Origin: an uncultured Clostridia bacterium
Lineage (GTDB): Bacteria; Bacillota_A; Clostridia; Oscillospirales; Oscillospiraceae
Length of the DNA stretch: 6,307 nt
Direction of reading: 5' to 3'
Assembly: GCA_947307505.1 (NCBI GenBank)
Contig: CAMZJG010000064.1
Location: forward strand, 1 to 6,307
A model generated the notes under the pieces. That model was not told the DNA's origin, did no database searches, and worked only from the letters and a program-made list of their open reading frames with translations. This document shows, in pieces, positions 1 through 4,393 of this stretch (within the stretch, counting starts at the first letter, position 1; every line of letters starts with the position of its first letter). Position numbers and translations under genes: made by a program.

Positions 1-55
1 CCCGGGTGATGCTCGCCGCTTCCCGCATGGCCGCCGCAGTCGCTTTATTGGGCCG
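1..55 (-). pseudogene. Duplicated fragment of the DinJ/RelB antitoxin gene
   Basis: These 55 bases are identical to 4177-4231, inside the intact antitoxin gene, in the same orientation. Read in the antitoxin frame they encode RPNKATAAAMREAASITR, residues 55-72 of the 91-residue protein, which is the linker between the ribbon-helix-helix half and the toxin-binding tail. Identity stops sharply at base 56, where ABC-ATPase coding sequence begins. The copy has no start of its own and runs off the window edge, so it is unknown whether the rest of the antitoxin and a second toxin-permease follow to the left. Either a real rearrangement or an assembly end effect could explain it. Confidence 0.85.
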
Positions 56-104
56 CGCCGCCAGGATAGGTGTAGCTGACATTTTCCAAAGTTAGCGCGT
101 TCAT
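45..104 (-). pseudogene. ABC transporter ATP-binding subunit, N-terminal stub only
   Basis: From the ATG at 102-104 the minus strand reads MNALTLENVSYTYPGGAAQ and then a TAA at 45-47. The segment up to PGG is a typical first beta-strand of an ABC ATPase (hydrophobic-E-N-V-S-Y-x-Y, just ahead of the Walker A region). The last three codons and the stop arise from the antitoxin fragment, which is joined out of frame at about base 55/56. Walker A, Walker B and signature motifs are all missing. It lies downstream of the FtsX-type permease on the same strand, where the partner ATPase (MacB/LolD type) of such a permease would be expected. A very good ribosome binding site suggests the start is authentic. 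Identification rests on only about 16 residues, so the family call is good but not certain. The window gives no intact ATPase. Confidence 0.7.
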
Positions 105-110
105 GGAAAA

Positions 111-118
111 ACCTCCTT
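111..118 (-). promoter_or_regulatory. Ribosome binding site of the truncated ABC ATPase
   Basis: The minus strand reads AAGGAGGT, ending seven bases before the ATG at 104. It is a near-perfect anti-16S match at an ideal distance. It supports the ATG as a true start and shows that the sequence right of base 56 once led into a functional gene. Confidence 0.8.
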
Positions 119-141
119 GCTTTTCGTTTTTGGACGGGGGC

Positions 142-282
142 GCCTCGCCGGCGGGGCCCCTGCCGGGGGCGTGACTTTCCCAATGCGGGGAAAGTCACCA
201 AAGGCGCACCAAAGGGGACCTATTTCGAGGCGGTCCCCTTTGGAAACCCTCCCCGACGACGAAAGGGGCTCCGCCCCCTTCG
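142..282 (+). repeat. Multi-hairpin intergenic element, copy 1
   Basis: Read on the plus strand, four hairpins follow one another. A: 142-149 with 150-157, with one G-T (G-U) wobble. B: 171-181 with 188-198, 11 perfect pairs, 6-base loop. C: 209-220 with 232-243, 12 perfect pairs, 11-base loop. D: 260-269 with 273-282, one mismatch. A smaller extra hairpin, 156-160 with 166-170, lies between A and B. The same order of hairpins, and the ACCAAAGG joint after hairpin B, recurs on the minus strand at 361-486. It could be a structured RNA, a REP-like mobile element or both. I recognise it as a repeat by the two copies here; I cannot assign a named family. Confidence 0.75.
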
Positions 283-360
283 AACCCCAACGGGAGACGT
301 AGGACGGGGGACGGGAGTTCTGCACGAAATAACGGGATCAGGTAACATATGCGGGGGGAT

Positions 361-486
361 CCAATGGGGGGCATTCGGCCCCCCTTGGCCGGGAGGAGGG
401 GCCCCGGGGAACCATTCGGAAGGTTCCCCGGGCGATCCTTTGGTTCCTTTCCCATCGGGGGGAAAGGAACGCCTCGCCGGCGAGGC
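361..486 (-). repeat. Multi-hairpin intergenic element, copy 2 (opposite orientation)
   Basis: Read on the minus strand: hairpin A is a perfect 16-bp palindrome at 471-486. B pairs 460-470 with 443-453, 11 perfect pairs, 6-base loop. C pairs 422-432 with 403-413, 11 perfect pairs, 8-base loop. D pairs 385-388 and 379-384 with 361-364 and 366-371, with one bulged base. B, C and D have different stem sequences from copy 1 but stay paired. It begins 33 bp after the permease stop, on the same strand, so it would be in the 3' part of that transcript and might stabilise or attenuate the message before the ATPase gene. That role is inference. Confidence 0.75.
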
Positions 487-518
487 GGCTTCCGCGGGTA
501 TGGAAACCCCTTCGTGTT

Positions 519-3500
519 TTATTCCTTCGCCTGCAATTGCTCCAGCACCCGTTTTCTTGCGCAGAGCCAAGCGAAGATGCCGGAACCCACAGCGCAGGCT
601 GCCAGATGAGCAGAGACGTAGATAGCGAAGGGAACAATTATTGCCCCCCATTCTGGATGCAGGACCACCAGCACCATGGCGATGCCCAGTACCAGACCCG
701 CCAGGGCGCATAATACCTGGGAAAGGGTATACAGGATCACGCAGTCCCTTGCCCGCACCCCCAGGGCTCGGAGGATGCTGATTTCCCTGGACCCGTGCAG
801 CACGATCAGCCCCGGCAACACTCCTCCCAGCAGCAGAGCCGCCGCTACTGCCAGGGGATACAGGCTCTCAATAAGCCTGTGGATCTTGTACATCCGATCG
901 GCATAAGAGGTATCTATTCTCAGTTGAACGCTGTTCCCAGAACGGGAGATGACCTGCTTTGCATAGTCAGAGAATTCCGTAGCTTTATGGTAGTCCAACA
1001 GGGTATATTCCGCTATGTCCAGGCCGAAGCCAAACTCAGAATACAGGAAGGTGTACCGATTCCAGGTCTTGGCAGAAACATAGGTGGTCATATCCAGCGC
1101 ATCCGTTTGGATGAGGCCCGCGATTTCCATGAAAGGCCGCCGAGCGTCTCGGCGTTCCATGACCGTTTCCCCCTCCTTGAGGGGGTCATTACCGTTGTTC
1201 GTCACATGAAGCCACCAATTTGTCTCGTTTACTCGGACTTTATCTCCAAGGCCAAGACCCAGGGAATCCGCAAAACCCTGTGTGATGATGCAGTACCGGT
1301 CGTTGGAAGCCATGACGGTTTCCTCATCCAGACCTTTTTGCCAAACAATAGGCAGTTGTACTCGGCGGTCCATGCGGTTCACAAAGATGATCTCTGTGTT
1401 GTTCATCTCGACTACGGCATCCTTGGAGCAAAATTCGTAGTAGGGATCCCGCACATATCCACTATCGGCAATCTTGACTGCCCGATCATAGTCCAGGCCG
1501 CCAGAAATCACCGGTTTTACCTCCACGTTCTGATACAGCTCCCGGTAGATACCACGGAGTCCCGTAAGGGCGCCAAAGGCAAATACCAACAGAGCTGCCA
1601 GCACCATGCTCAGGCAACTGCGACCCATATTACGGCTAAGTAGTCTGCGGAGATACCTCCCGCCCCAGTTGTTACTGCGGCTGCCTCCCAGATTCCTTTG
1701 CAAATGCAGCGCTTCAGGATTTGACTGCTCGACAGTCACCAGTTCCTGCTTTAGTCGTTTCTGTTGTCCTCCCTCTGCCTGTAATAACTGCAATATGCTT
1801 TTTCGACGAATGAGTAGTATTACACCCCAGGCAAAGGCTGCTAAAACCAAGAGGAAGCAACAGCCTCCCAGGACATAAAGTGATGGTCCAGCAGGGGCAT
1901 GAGGAGTGGCAACCTCTACCGAGGATGCCGCCAGTTGCCGTATACTGAACATCTTTGCAGCCACCCCGCCAATGATGACGGAGATGCTGCCCAGAGCGAG
2001 GAAGGGGATAAACAGACAGGACGATGCCGCTCCTTTGGGCATGCCAAGGGCCCGGAAAATGGCGAATTCTTTTTTCCTCCGCCCGATGAAAAGCCAGATG
2101 GTGACGACCAGGGCCATGATTGCCGCTCCGGTGAAGACCAGGAGCTTTATGCGCGCCAGGTCACGGGTTGCCACAAGCTGCTCTCCGACGAGGGACCAGC
2201 CCAAATCACTCCACAAATAAGGTTTTCCCAGATCAGCCAGAGCGGACAGGTTCTCCTGCTCAAATGGAATGATCTCCTCCGGGTTTTCCACAACGAAGCT
2301 TATTTCAGCTGGTTTCGGGGAATAGCTCTCGGTGTTCACGCAATCCGGCAGAAAGGCCGAGGGGACGAAAATCGCATTGTTAGACCAGCACCAGTACAAC
2401 TCCCGGTCCACATGGTTACCTTCATTCAGGTCTCGCCATGTTCCCACAATGGTAAAGGTCTGCTCCTTGAAAACAGCAGAGTACCTTCCTCTTGTGGATG
2501 CAACTGCGCCCAGAGGAGCATACTGCTCGCAAAGGTAATTACCCAGATTCAGAGTGATGTTGTCCCCAATATGTAAGCCGTTATGTTCCAGAAAATCCTT
2601 GCTCACCACGCACACGGGTTTGCCCGCATCCGCCGGTGTGATAAACCGACCAGCCTCGCAGACCATTCGCCCATCCGCTACTCGACGAATGGAAGCCATA
2701 TCATCCCCATAGACCACATCAAAGGTGTGCAGATCATCGTTCGTTACTTGGATGAGCTCCCGCAGGTTGGCAAATTCTTCTGTTTCCAGCCAGTTTTCCG
2801 GCAGATCTGTAATGTCTACGAAGTAGGGCCACCAGCCGATAAGAGTATCGTCTGCCATGACAAAGGTGTTGTAGTTTCCCTGCCGCTCCGGGGAGAAGGA
2901 AGTCTCATTGTCTCTCTCGTTTCGCATAACGAAAACATAGCGCCGACCAACCTCCAAGTCGGACAAATCAGACCAGCACAGGTGATTGTCGATGCTATAG
3001 GCGTTTCGCCTGTCCGGGTAATCTACCCATCCCGTCATCACGTATTCATCCCGCAGCTCATCCCGGATGAACCATTGGGAGATTACAGGGGTACTTTCTC
3101 CCTCTTGGAGCCAGGTCGAATCTCCAGCCAACAACTCCACATCCTCCAGTTGGATACACTGGAAGCCGCCTATTGCCACCTCTTCATAGTGAGAGTACGC
3201 CCCATTTTTAATGGGAAGACCCTGTTTCTCCTGGCTTTCATTGAGAAATATGTCTTCTATAGTAGCTGCCACAATACAACGCCCTGCGTAAAAGAAGAGT
3301 TTCTGATCTGTGTCTAGCCGCATATAGTCCGGAGATACCCCGGCGGTCATGTACCGTCGCTCTACCCGAGAGATATGGGGTAGGTTGCTCAGTGCTTGAA
3401 TCGTGTCTTCCTTGAGGCTTTCGTGGTGATAGCCAGAATAAGATACCACGTCGAAGGTTTGACCTGGGTTTGTTGGATCTGTGATGAGGAAAAAATCATT

Positions 3501-4001
3501 GTAAGCACTGGGCCTGCTAACGGGTACTTCCTCTACCGTCAGCACACCCTCATATTTATCCCGGGCCTCCTTGTACTCCCCATCCGATACGGCGTATTCT
3601 CCCAGGTTGTACAAAAACAGGAACGCCGTAGCCGCCAGGAGCAGCAGGGTTACGGCGGTTTTCAGCGGGCTGCGGTACAGGGTTTTCAGCGATTTAGACG
3701 GTTTCACGGCGCTTGCTCCTTCCCGATGGTACACTTCCTCCCGGCTGCCGGTACGGAGCAGAGTCAGCACCAGCATCTCCCCTTCGATGTAATAGACCAG
3801 CAGCCGGTTCGGCTGCACCTGGCATTCCCGATAGCCCTGCATATCCCCGCTCAAGGGCCGGTCACGGTATTCGGCGGGAAGAGTCTCCCCCGCAGCCAGA
3901 GCGGTGATGACGGCATTCAGGGGTCCCATATCCAGCCCCTTCTGCTGTGCCCGCCTGTAATCCCTCTTGAATTCGGCAGTCGGTTTGATGGTGTACATCA
4001 T
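519..4001 (-). CDS. YafQ-like toxin domain fused in frame to a tandem-FtsX ABC transporter permease
   Basis: A single open frame of 1160 codons. Residues 1-91 match the RelE/ParE-superfamily toxin YafQ (FKRDY, Y-R-D-x-P-L-x-G, G-Y-R-E-C, L-L-R-T-G). Residues 99-1160 are an ABC permease: a cytoplasmic start, membrane segment ~115-132, a large extracytoplasmic domain ~133-617, segments ~618-640, ~658-684 and ~706-731, a cytoplasmic linker, segment ~794-815, a second extracytoplasmic domain ~816-1045, and segments ~1046-1068, ~1085-1112 and ~1118-1146. The FtsX signature occurs twice, as KEFAIFRALG (644-653) and REISILRALG (1072-1081), each after the first segment of a three-segment bundle. Such permeases act with an ATPase in MacB/Lol-type mechanotransmission, lipoprotein or peptide export; the substrate cannot be told. 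A GTG at 3707 (residue 99) with its own ribosome binding site may start a separate 1062-residue permease. GC is lower than in the spoIIP region, suggesting transfer. Confidence 0.85.
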   Translation of the reverse strand: MMYTIKPTAEFKRDYRRAQQKGLDMGPLNAVITALAAGETLPAEYRDRPLSGDMQGYRECQVQPNRLLVYYIEGEMLVLTLLRTGSREEVYHREGASAVKPSKSLKTLYRSPLKTAVTLLLLAATAFLFLYNLGEYAVSDGEYKEARDKYEGVLTVEEVPVSRPSAYNDFFLITDPTNPGQTFDVVSYSGYHHESLKEDTIQALSNLPHISRVERRYMTAGVSPDYMRLDTDQKLFFYAGRCIVAATIEDIFLNESQEKQGLPIKNGAYSHYEEVAIGGFQCIQLEDVELLAGDSTWLQEGESTPVISQWFIRDELRDEYVMTGWVDYPDRRNAYSIDNHLCWSDLSDLEVGRRYVFVMRNERDNETSFSPERQGNYNTFVMADDTLIGWWPYFVDITDLPENWLETEEFANLRELIQVTNDDLHTFDVVYGDDMASIRRVADGRMVCEAGRFITPADAGKPVCVVSKDFLEHNGLHIGDNITLNLGNYLCEQYAPLGAVASTRGRYSAVFKEQTFTIVGTWRDLNEGNHVDRELYWCWSNNAIFVPSAFLPDCVNTESYSPKPAEISFVVENPEEIIPFEQENLSALADLGKPYLWSDLGWSLVGEQLVATRDLARIKLLVFTGAAIMALVVTIWLFIGRRKKEFAIFRALGMPKGAASSCLFIPFLALGSISVIIGGVAAKMFSIRQLAASSVEVATPHAPAGPSLYVLGGCCFLLVLAAFAWGVILLIRRKSILQLLQAEGGQQKRLKQELVTVEQSNPEALHLQRNLGGSRSNNWGGRYLRRLLSRNMGRSCLSMVLAALLVFAFGALTGLRGIYRELYQNVEVKPVISGGLDYDRAVKIADSGYVRDPYYEFCSKDAVVEMNNTEIIFVNRMDRRVQLPIVWQKGLDEETVMASNDRYCIITQGFADSLGLGLGDKVRVNETNWWLHVTNNGNDPLKEGETVMERRDARRPFMEIAGLIQTDALDMTTYVSAKTWNRYTFLYSEFGFGLDIAEYTLLDYHKATEFSDYAKQVISRSGNSVQLRIDTSYADRMYKIHRLIESLYPLAVAAALLLGGVLPGLIVLHGSREISILRALGVRARDCVILYTLSQVLCALAGLVLGIAMVLVVLHPEWGAIIVPFAIYVSAHLAACAVGSGIFAWLCARKRVLEQLQAKE
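3705..3723 (-). promoter_or_regulatory. Internal ribosome binding site and GTG start for the permease
   Basis: Inside the fused frame the minus strand carries GGAAGGAGC (3715-3723), then GTG at 3705-3707, with eight bases between AAGGAG and GTG. From this GTG the protein reads VKPSKSLKTLYRSPLKTAV, which is how permeases of this type normally begin, just before the first membrane segment. The site looks like the original start of a separate permease gene. It could still give a 1062-residue permease without the toxin part, so both a fused and a free product are possible. Confidence 0.7.
3708..4001 (-). other. YafQ-like toxin domain of the fusion, probably catalytically dead
   Basis: Codons 1-98 of the fused frame. 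By alignment from memory with E. coli YafQ, catalytic positions H50, H63, D67 and H87 correspond here to R48, Q61, N65 and R87, and W68 to R66. The arginine of RTG (R83) and the core hydrophobics are kept. So the fold and probably the antitoxin-binding surface are retained, while the mRNA-cleaving residues are not. The stop codon expected right after residue 91 is absent and the frame runs on through HREGASA into the permease. The start could be either of two adjacent ATGs (4001 or 3998); a GAGGGGG at 4008-4014 suits both. The antitoxin gene lies upstream on the same strand, as in dinJ-yafQ operons. Confidence 0.75.
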
Positions 4002-4117: not shown

Positions 4118-4393
4118 TCAGTCCGCCAGGTCCCGGAACAGCTCCTCCGGGTCCTCATAGCCCTTGACGGATTTGTCCCGGGTGATGCTCGCCGCTTCCC
4201 GCATGGCCGCCGCAGTCGCTTTATTGGGCCGGTCCCGCTTGATCTCAAAGGGGATCCGGTTCTCCCGTACCGCCTGGCGGAAAAACACGGTGATAGCGGT
4301 GGTCAGGCTCATCCCCAGATCGGCGAACAGGTTTTCGGCCTGGGCCTTCAGCTCCGGGTCGATACGAACGTTGAGGTTGGCTGTATTCGGCAT
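4118..4393 (-). CDS. DinJ/RelB-family antitoxin
   Basis: 91 residues, usual length for the family. Residues ~4-50 form a ribbon-helix-helix DNA-binding domain (strand NLNVRID, then two helices including LGMSLTTAITVFFRQAV), followed by the IPFE-type joint. The C-terminal tail YEDPEELFRDLAD matches the toxin-wrapping tail of DinJ. The protein should neutralise a YafQ-type toxin in the cytoplasm and repress its own promoter as a dimer or toxin complex. The start ATG at 4393 has AAGGAGGAG at 4401-4409. The gene is first in a likely operon with the toxin-permease fusion, but a 116-bp gap separates them. Codons 55-72 are repeated exactly at 1-55. As the neighbouring toxin looks inactive, the antitoxin may now serve mainly as a regulator, or may bind the cytoplasmic N-terminus of the permease; both are inference. 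Confidence 0.9.
   Translation of the reverse strand: MPNTANLNVRIDPELKAQAENLFADLGMSLTTAITVFFRQAVRENRIPFEIKRDRPNKATAAAMREAASITRDKSVKGYEDPEELFRDLAD

Follow-up and report, generated by a model that had tools for sequence, protein, structure and literature searches.

A dispersed intergenic repeat of Clostridia with facing ends and a co-varying pseudoknot

The nearest known system to the repeat considered here is that of the BoxC/PIT (TM_ECO) repeats of Escherichia coli, triplex repeats known since the 1990s (PMC4666352). There the E. coli triplex motifs are described as intergenic, free of strand bias and arranged in inverted pairs of two types. All four BoxC/PIT pairs of E. coli MG1655 that were fetched face each other, and by eye the MG1655 pairs have neither a pseudoknot nor a paired lower stem; a fifth pair (17+18) is not facing by the coordinates printed in PMC4666352. 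The palindromes of REP/RAYT systems carry a GTAG/CGTC tag at the foot, as stated in PMC3733652, and the STAXI motif (RF01728) comprises a pseudoknot that its authors consider a possible single-stranded DNA structure (PMC2864571). Among the matches listed in a literature search no description of the present repeats was found, PMC4666352 being the close one. Comparison with Rfam, suggested by the initial annotation of this DNA, returned no known family at gathering threshold over the element, either in the window or at 28 loci; the matches in the flanks were tRNAs and a glycine riboswitch only. Relaxed thresholds gave nothing convincing either: the best weak match, P4, was rejected, with 20.8 bits against a threshold of 37 and many mispairs.

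The window is a stretch of 6,307 nucleotides from an uncultured Clostridia bacterium. It contains an element of about 345 bp made up of copy 1 (141–282, plus strand) and copy 2 (361–487, minus strand), situated between the stop codon of a permease gene (519–4001, minus strand), which lies upstream of copy 2, and the start of an ATPase gene (Table 1). The initial annotation described two facing multi-hairpin copies with the common order A-B-C-D. This order is confirmed for A, B and C. It is not confirmed for D, nor is the compensated change reported there, since the D sequences of the two copies (about 260–282 and 361–388) are not recognisably alike. The other details given there were recovered. 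The joint ACCAAAGG is present in both copies; two pairs of stem B differ and are both still paired (G-C to T-A and A-T to C-G), the stem being a perfect 11-bp helix in both copies; four pairs of stem C differ and all are still paired when aligned from the loop side; and stem A of copy 1 has one G.T pair. The two A hairpins (141–157 and 471–487) are 94% complementary. The predicted folds are far better than those of dinucleotide shuffles, copy 1 reaching z = -5.1 and copy 2 z = -4.9 (none of 200 shuffles as good in either case); the opposite strands give z = -4.5 (0 of 200 as good) and -3.1 (2 of 200), respectively. A matching site in genome G010 (locus L038) is arranged like the window: copy 2 and the interior are present, and the contig starts within the 'D' hairpin of copy 1; stem C of copy 2 shows compensated changes there.

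Table 1. Coordinates of the features of the element and of its neighbouring genes in the window.
Feature	Position	Strand	Basis or remark
ABC ATPase gene start (MNALTLENVSYTYPGG...), gene after the element	55..104	-	sequence by eye; L174 starts alike
Possible target-site duplication, left (ATGGAAAAACCTCCTTGCTTT)	103..123	.	overlaps ribosome-binding site/start of ATPase gene
Copy 1 hairpin A (GCCTCGCC/GGCGGGGC at 142-157), outer end of element	141..157	+	sequence; inverted repeat with copy 2
Additional G+C hairpin separating A from B in copy 1 alone	156..170	+	sequence, fold
Copy 1 stem-loop B, 11-bp stem 171-181/188-198, loop 182-187 (AATGCG)	171..198	+	sequence, fold, family alignments
Copy 1 linker CAAAGG, which could form five R.R:Y triads with stem B (TTTCC/GGAAA)	199..204	+	stem/linker comparison, triplex scan
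Copy 1 pseudoknot 3' strand CGCA, pairing with loop bases 184-187 (TGCG)	205..208	+	sequence; covariation
Copy 1 hairpin C, 12-bp stem 209-220/232-243, 11-nt loop	209..243	+	inverted-repeat search, fold
Copy 1 'D' hairpin	about 259..282	+	sequence, fold; homology to copy 2 'D' not clear
Copy 2 'D' hairpin	361..388	-	sequence, fold
Copy 2 hairpin C, 11-bp stem 432-422/413-403	403..432	-	sequence, comparison with L038
Copy 2 pseudoknot 3' strand ATCG, pairing with loop bases 457-454 (CGAT)	433..436	-	sequence; covariation
Copy 2 linker CAAAGG; five triads possible	437..442	-	stem/linker comparison, triplex scan
Copy 2 stem-loop B, 11-bp stem 470-460/453-443, loop 459-454 (CCCGAT)	443..470	-	sequence, fold
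Copy 2 hairpin A, outer end of element	471..487	-	inverted repeat with copy 1
Possible target-site duplication, right (ATGGAAACCCCTTCGTGTTTT)	500..520	.	flank comparison
YafQ toxin domain joined to MacB/FtsX-type ABC permease	519..4001	-	1160 aa; domain search

The permease gene joins a YafQ domain to a MacB/FtsX-type permease in a single frame, as is also the case at loci L080 and L064, and a RelB-family antitoxin gene (4118–4393) lies upstream of it. The fusion looks real because related genes of two further genomes likewise have a YafQ domain close to their start (330 codons of each scanned). After about 50 bases the ATPase gene (start 104, minus strand) runs into a copy of a piece of the RelB antitoxin gene, positions 1–55 being identical over 55 bases to 4177–4231. 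The junction at 1–55 is probably an assembly artefact at the contig end.

The strongest feature of the element, absent from the initial annotation, is a pseudoknot at stem-loop B. Four loop bases of stem-loop B are paired, in either copy, with the four that directly follow CAAAGG (184–187/205–208 and 457–454/433–436). The B loop and the bases directly past CCAAAGG form an H-type pseudoknot which co-varies across relatives, where the two strands change together (AGCGAT/ATCGC, GGTGCG/CGCAC, CTTGAT/ATCAAG, GTCCGA/TCGG). The co-variation was counted in two alignments. Alignment A2 (36 sequences) was obtained from A1 by removal of L070, L119, L066 and L033, which have loops of other lengths; its search pattern fixed the top of stem B and left the lower stem and the pseudoknot free. 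The 11-bp stem and 5-bp pseudoknot are 97.6% paired in A2. Alignment A5 comprises 67 distinct cores, other end types and Bacteroidota among them, selected for a paired stem and an AAA linker, the pseudoknot being no criterion. It was derived from 73 cores by removal of six out-of-register or off-type rows (L023, L059, L124, L135, one of L190 and one of L191); L064 and L080, identical to the window copies, were dropped and the window copies put in. The double-change cells numbered 62 in A2 against 15.4 (sd 2.8) in shuffled alignments, 220 against 48.8 (sd 5.4) for stem plus pseudoknot in A5, where slid versions gave no more than 59, and 84 against 20.7 (sd 3.5) when only the pseudoknot helix of A5 was counted (no more than 20 on sliding), all these counts being inflated by kinship of the sequences, which the shuffles ignore. 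The outermost pseudoknot pair is weak in A5 (unpaired in 33 of 67 cores) and the innermost one fails in 11 of 67. The many additional copies and their co-variation lend strong support to the view of the initial annotation that the paired changes point to a conserved structure. Another common type of hairpin (ACTTTTCTTGAAAGAAAAGT..CAAAAGAACTTT), seen in L036, L076, L096 and others, apparently follows the same linker rule and has a different, weaker pseudoknot. The scan for hairpin plus pseudoknot stands without a control, as a reversed sequence keeps the pattern and reversal is useless for this purpose.

The CAAAGG linker appears to track the stem in the mirror pattern expected of a purine third strand. 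Among the 73 cores, the first stem base past TTT and the linker base past AAA are matched as C/G in 48 of 48, G/A in 11 of 11 and T/A in 10 of 14 rows, the remaining four T rows being T/G and all one base out of register. The next position is C/G in 32, T/A in 20, C/C in 12 and other in 9, and the C/C rows are largely of the CTTTGCC/CAAAAC type. This evidence is good, not overwhelming, because the independent origins are few (about six to eight stem/linker types by eye). Correction of palindromes by templated repair, which the initial annotation held to be a possible source of paired changes, could explain those in the stems; it would not produce the mirror-image match of the linker, since stem and linker do not form an inverted repeat.

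With the published intrastrand-triplex rule (at least 6 contiguous R.R:Y triads, loops of 1–6 nt) the window gave no match, and with a relaxed one (5 triads, loops up to 8) exactly 5 triads were obtained at each window copy. When a first loop of up to 8 is allowed, L004, L104, L131 and L191 match, as does L178 (10 triads, 1 mismatch). Together these five loci have 7–10 triads; one mismatch is present in most of them, and in several the first loop exceeds the limit of the rule; L004, L104, L131 and L178 have 8–10 class II triads, most with one mismatch. Five triads were found in L013 and L091 and none in L198, and the E. coli BoxC controls gave 10–11 in the same scan. A genuine third strand formed by the linker on this strand would favour DNA as the folding molecule, because purine-motif triplexes are stated in PMC4666352 not to form in RNA; a complementary RNA could use the pyrimidine motif. 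The wobble counts in 67 unique cores (A-C/C-A 4, G-T/T-G 2, T-C/C-T 4) give no indication of the folding strand or molecule.

Copies 1 and 2 appear to be the two ends of a single element, to judge from the arrangement of neighbouring cores: 40 pairs within 1 kb, free of duplicates, comprise 31 facing, 9 tandem and no back-to-back ones (4 of the 40 closer than 150 bp). When the pseudoknot was required, 27 facing, 7 tandem and 1 back-to-back pairs were found at 150–1100 bp (24, 7 and 1 after removal of three duplicates); below 150 bp there were 0, 3 and 1, respectively. At 1.1–4.5 kb, the spacing that an autonomous version would produce, there is no surplus of facing pairs (5, against 9 tandem and 3 back to back). 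Six loci (L006, L014, L016, L057, L067 and L105) were judged to be chance matches, mainly with loop and downstream bases unpaired; they were excluded from the 40-pair, gene-strand and neighbour-protein sets (L066 also from the gene-strand count) and kept in the pseudoknot-required pair count and the 73-core linker set. The outer A-hairpin motif is found outside 44 of 56 ends, followed by the B hairpin, and the left and right B/pseudoknot types often differ. Genome G048 has three loci with facing ends 456–481 bp apart, measured from outer edge to outer edge.

The core is multi-copy in several Oscillospiraceae genomes, thinner in Bacteroidota and patchy. A search for further copies in Oscillospiraceae, as the initial annotation had proposed, revealed many in several genomes. 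The exact pattern occurs in at least 120 stretches of genome contigs, and Oscillospiraceae make up the majority of those records that are named to family or genus. Strict copies are present in all 13 genomes handled, which were chosen for carrying one, at 1 to 26 each; the copy-richest genome, G002, has 59 matches of a looser core pattern. Matches were obtained in 11 of 196 sampled genomes of the class of G003 (G040, G127 and G206 look like chance by eye) and in 6 of 117 of the order of G002 (G264 looks like chance). For the phylum of G013 the count, 16 of 198, is alone not clearly above chance, since a control pattern also matched 11 genomes; among the 19 matches listed there, 8, from 7 genomes, show the five pseudoknot pairs complete although the pattern made no such demand. 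The copies are mostly intergenic (7 of 118 were called inside an ORF by simple gene calling) and show no strand preference, the upstream gene being on the same strand in 52 and on the opposite strand in 48 cases among 118 copies. A search of plasmid and phage DNA with window positions 130–500 gave no match at 1e-5; viral contigs contained 1 and 2 stretches for two patterns. By eye, Pseudoflavonifractor loci such as L035, L022 and L013 have other repeats inside the element or its hairpin C (CCGTAGGGGCGG..., GCCTTCCCC...GGGGAAGG... and GGGGGAGATGTCGC...), making up mosaic intergenic regions.

Sites without the element exist. At locus L091 of G008 the element lies between two genes; the joined flanks align contiguously to an operon of G354 (query 7–240 of 240, 76%), and the match of G008 itself is split by the element at 120/121. 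The insert is flanked by GAGGAAAGTAATC and GAGGAAAATCATC, whose likeness could come from selection because they take in the ribosome-binding site. Split matches were also seen in G323 (by eye with another gene in the gap) and G048 (pieces overlapping in the query). At a second site (L115) the joined-flank query had no match across the junction in 80 relatives. Genome G010 holds six related permease genes (L174, L176–L180). At L174, an equivalent permease-ATPase pair, only 98 bp lie between the permease gene and the start of the ATPase gene, and they contain no core; by eye, element ends follow the stop codons of the other five genes, two of which are convergent and share one site.

The possible target-site duplication in the window (103–123 and 500–520) is 16/21 identical and weak, 3.2% of mismatched flanks scoring as high. 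Flank repeats reaching the score met by 3.2% of mismatched flanks were found at 4 of 28 loci and are not general, L013 and L103 among these four being other repeats or palindromes. Recent movement appears to be rare, because the left ends of G002 are mostly 80–88% identical to their nearest relative (20 of 26, with one pair at 93.6% and one at 71%); three of the 26 have no match of 250 bases.

The element is probably, on balance, a short non-autonomous two-ended mobile repeat, BIME- or MITE-like and akin to BoxC/PIT, with pseudoknot ends and an enzyme supplied in trans. One such repeat would have inserted between the permease gene and its ATPase gene. Each end would consist of the outer hairpin A, then the 11-bp hairpin B with its H-type pseudoknot, the purine linker and hairpin C, and the linker may be able to lie along stem B as a third strand. 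What the enzyme recognises would be the single strand in its folded form at either end, and this would account for a shape that is kept while the letters change. The data show the co-varying fold, the dispersal of the repeat, ends that face inwards and sites lacking the element; active transposition, single-stranded DNA as the recognised form and the trans enzyme are what we infer. Against this reading, no transposase was seen among the best 25 of 157 families of neighbouring proteins (119 of 248 proteins), facing pairs at 1.1–4.5 kb are not in excess, flank repeats are not general, the second flank query had no match across its junction, and recent movement is rare. Structured RNA ends (a UTR or a processed RNA) spread within intergenic regions, the pseudoknot being a functional RNA, are an unlikely alternative reading of the same fold. 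Classical H-type RNA pseudoknots do resemble the sense-strand geometry of the element (11-bp stem 1, 1-nt loop 1, about 5-bp stem 2 and 6-nt loop 3), and some copies between same-direction genes, such as L091 and L029, might be transcribed. The equality of gene strands (52 and 48), the lack of a common neighbour function (no family matches more than 3 of 119 proteins among the best 25 of 157 families) and the lack of an Rfam match all speak against it; constant position and strand beside genes of one function, the trait of cis-regulatory RNA, was not found. The matched purine linker moreover fits the purine-motif triplex, which by the statement in PMC4666352 is impossible in RNA. If the ends are instead DNA triplexes of BoxC/PIT type, they might be ancient and immobile, with polymerase stalling and local instability as their main effect. 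The class II triads at the ends (five in both window copies, L013 and L091), the intergenic, strand-neutral, inverted pairs of two types described for E. coli in PMC4666352 and the facing of the four fetched pairs agree with such a role. Immobility is nevertheless hard to reconcile with the sites without the element (G354 and L174 of G010) and with the high dispersed copy number, the patchy spread and the 93.6% pair at different loci, which need a copying process, and we hold this explanation to be quite improbable.

Spread by an RNA intermediate in the manner of a SINE, with the pseudoknot bound by a reverse transcriptase and target duplications of variable length, is very unlikely: the possible duplications are long and unequal (13 positions with 2 mismatches at L091, 21 with 5 in the window, 9 at L115), yet they are statistically insecure, and a retro-copy would not be expected to carry a pair of inverted ends. 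Least credible is a REP/REPIN moved by a RAYT (TnpA-REP). The REP-like mobile hairpin of the initial annotation agrees with the observed behaviour, i.e. dispersed, intergenic copies in facing pairs and empty sites; a link to the RAYT-like transposase suggested along with it is not supported. Y1_Tnp matched in 12 of 17 genomes, draft or complete, and not in G002, G087, G073, G036 and G026, where a draft genome could hide a gene. Ten Y1_Tnp loci contained no significant core (best E 0.085), and GTAG was found within 45 bases outside the stem at 0 of 56 ends. The two-ended repeat served in trans is the reading retained here. Its extension to a class of two-ended mobile DNA that has had no name so far, shared by Clostridia and Bacteroidota, with ends recognised as a folded single strand (pseudoknot plus purine third strand), movement in trans by some enzyme and BoxC/PIT as a simplified branch, is tentative and rather doubtful.

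The repeats provide a large, naturally co-varying set of sequences with a common pseudoknot and possibly a third strand, and the elements that contain them look mobile. Ends acting as single-stranded DNA would be transposon ends read by their tertiary shape. The BoxC/PIT repeats of E. coli may likewise be the facing ends of small elements.

Similarly to BoxC/PIT/TM_ECO, the element has a hairpin with a putative purine third strand after it that mirrors the stem, an intergenic position, no strand bias and inverted pairs of two types. BoxC ends have 9–11 triads, a 3-nt turn and G/C sequence; unlike them, ends of the window type have a Watson-Crick lower stem in place of the turn and a pseudoknot, and the number of triads is often just 5. 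The window thus falls short of the published 6-triad rule. With REP, BIME and REPIN the element shares dispersed palindromic intergenic repeats with units paired in inverted orientation; it differs from REP/RAYT in its longer multi-hairpin ends and pseudoknot, and Y1/RAYT was not found in several copy-rich genomes. It resembles MITEs in being short, in having two inverted ends which mostly begin with the same A hairpin (44 of 56) and in the existence of sites without it; unlike in MITEs, the end types often differ, the fold is conserved rather than the sequence and there is no secure target-site duplication. STAXI likewise has a pseudoknot that is a possible single-stranded DNA structure, and differs, as far as its description in PMC2864571 goes, in being made of tandem pseudoknots near DNA-handling genes in Enterobacteriales; no Rfam match was obtained here. 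We therefore describe the window elements as working like the BoxC/PIT, REP or MITE families, without filing them as members of any of these.
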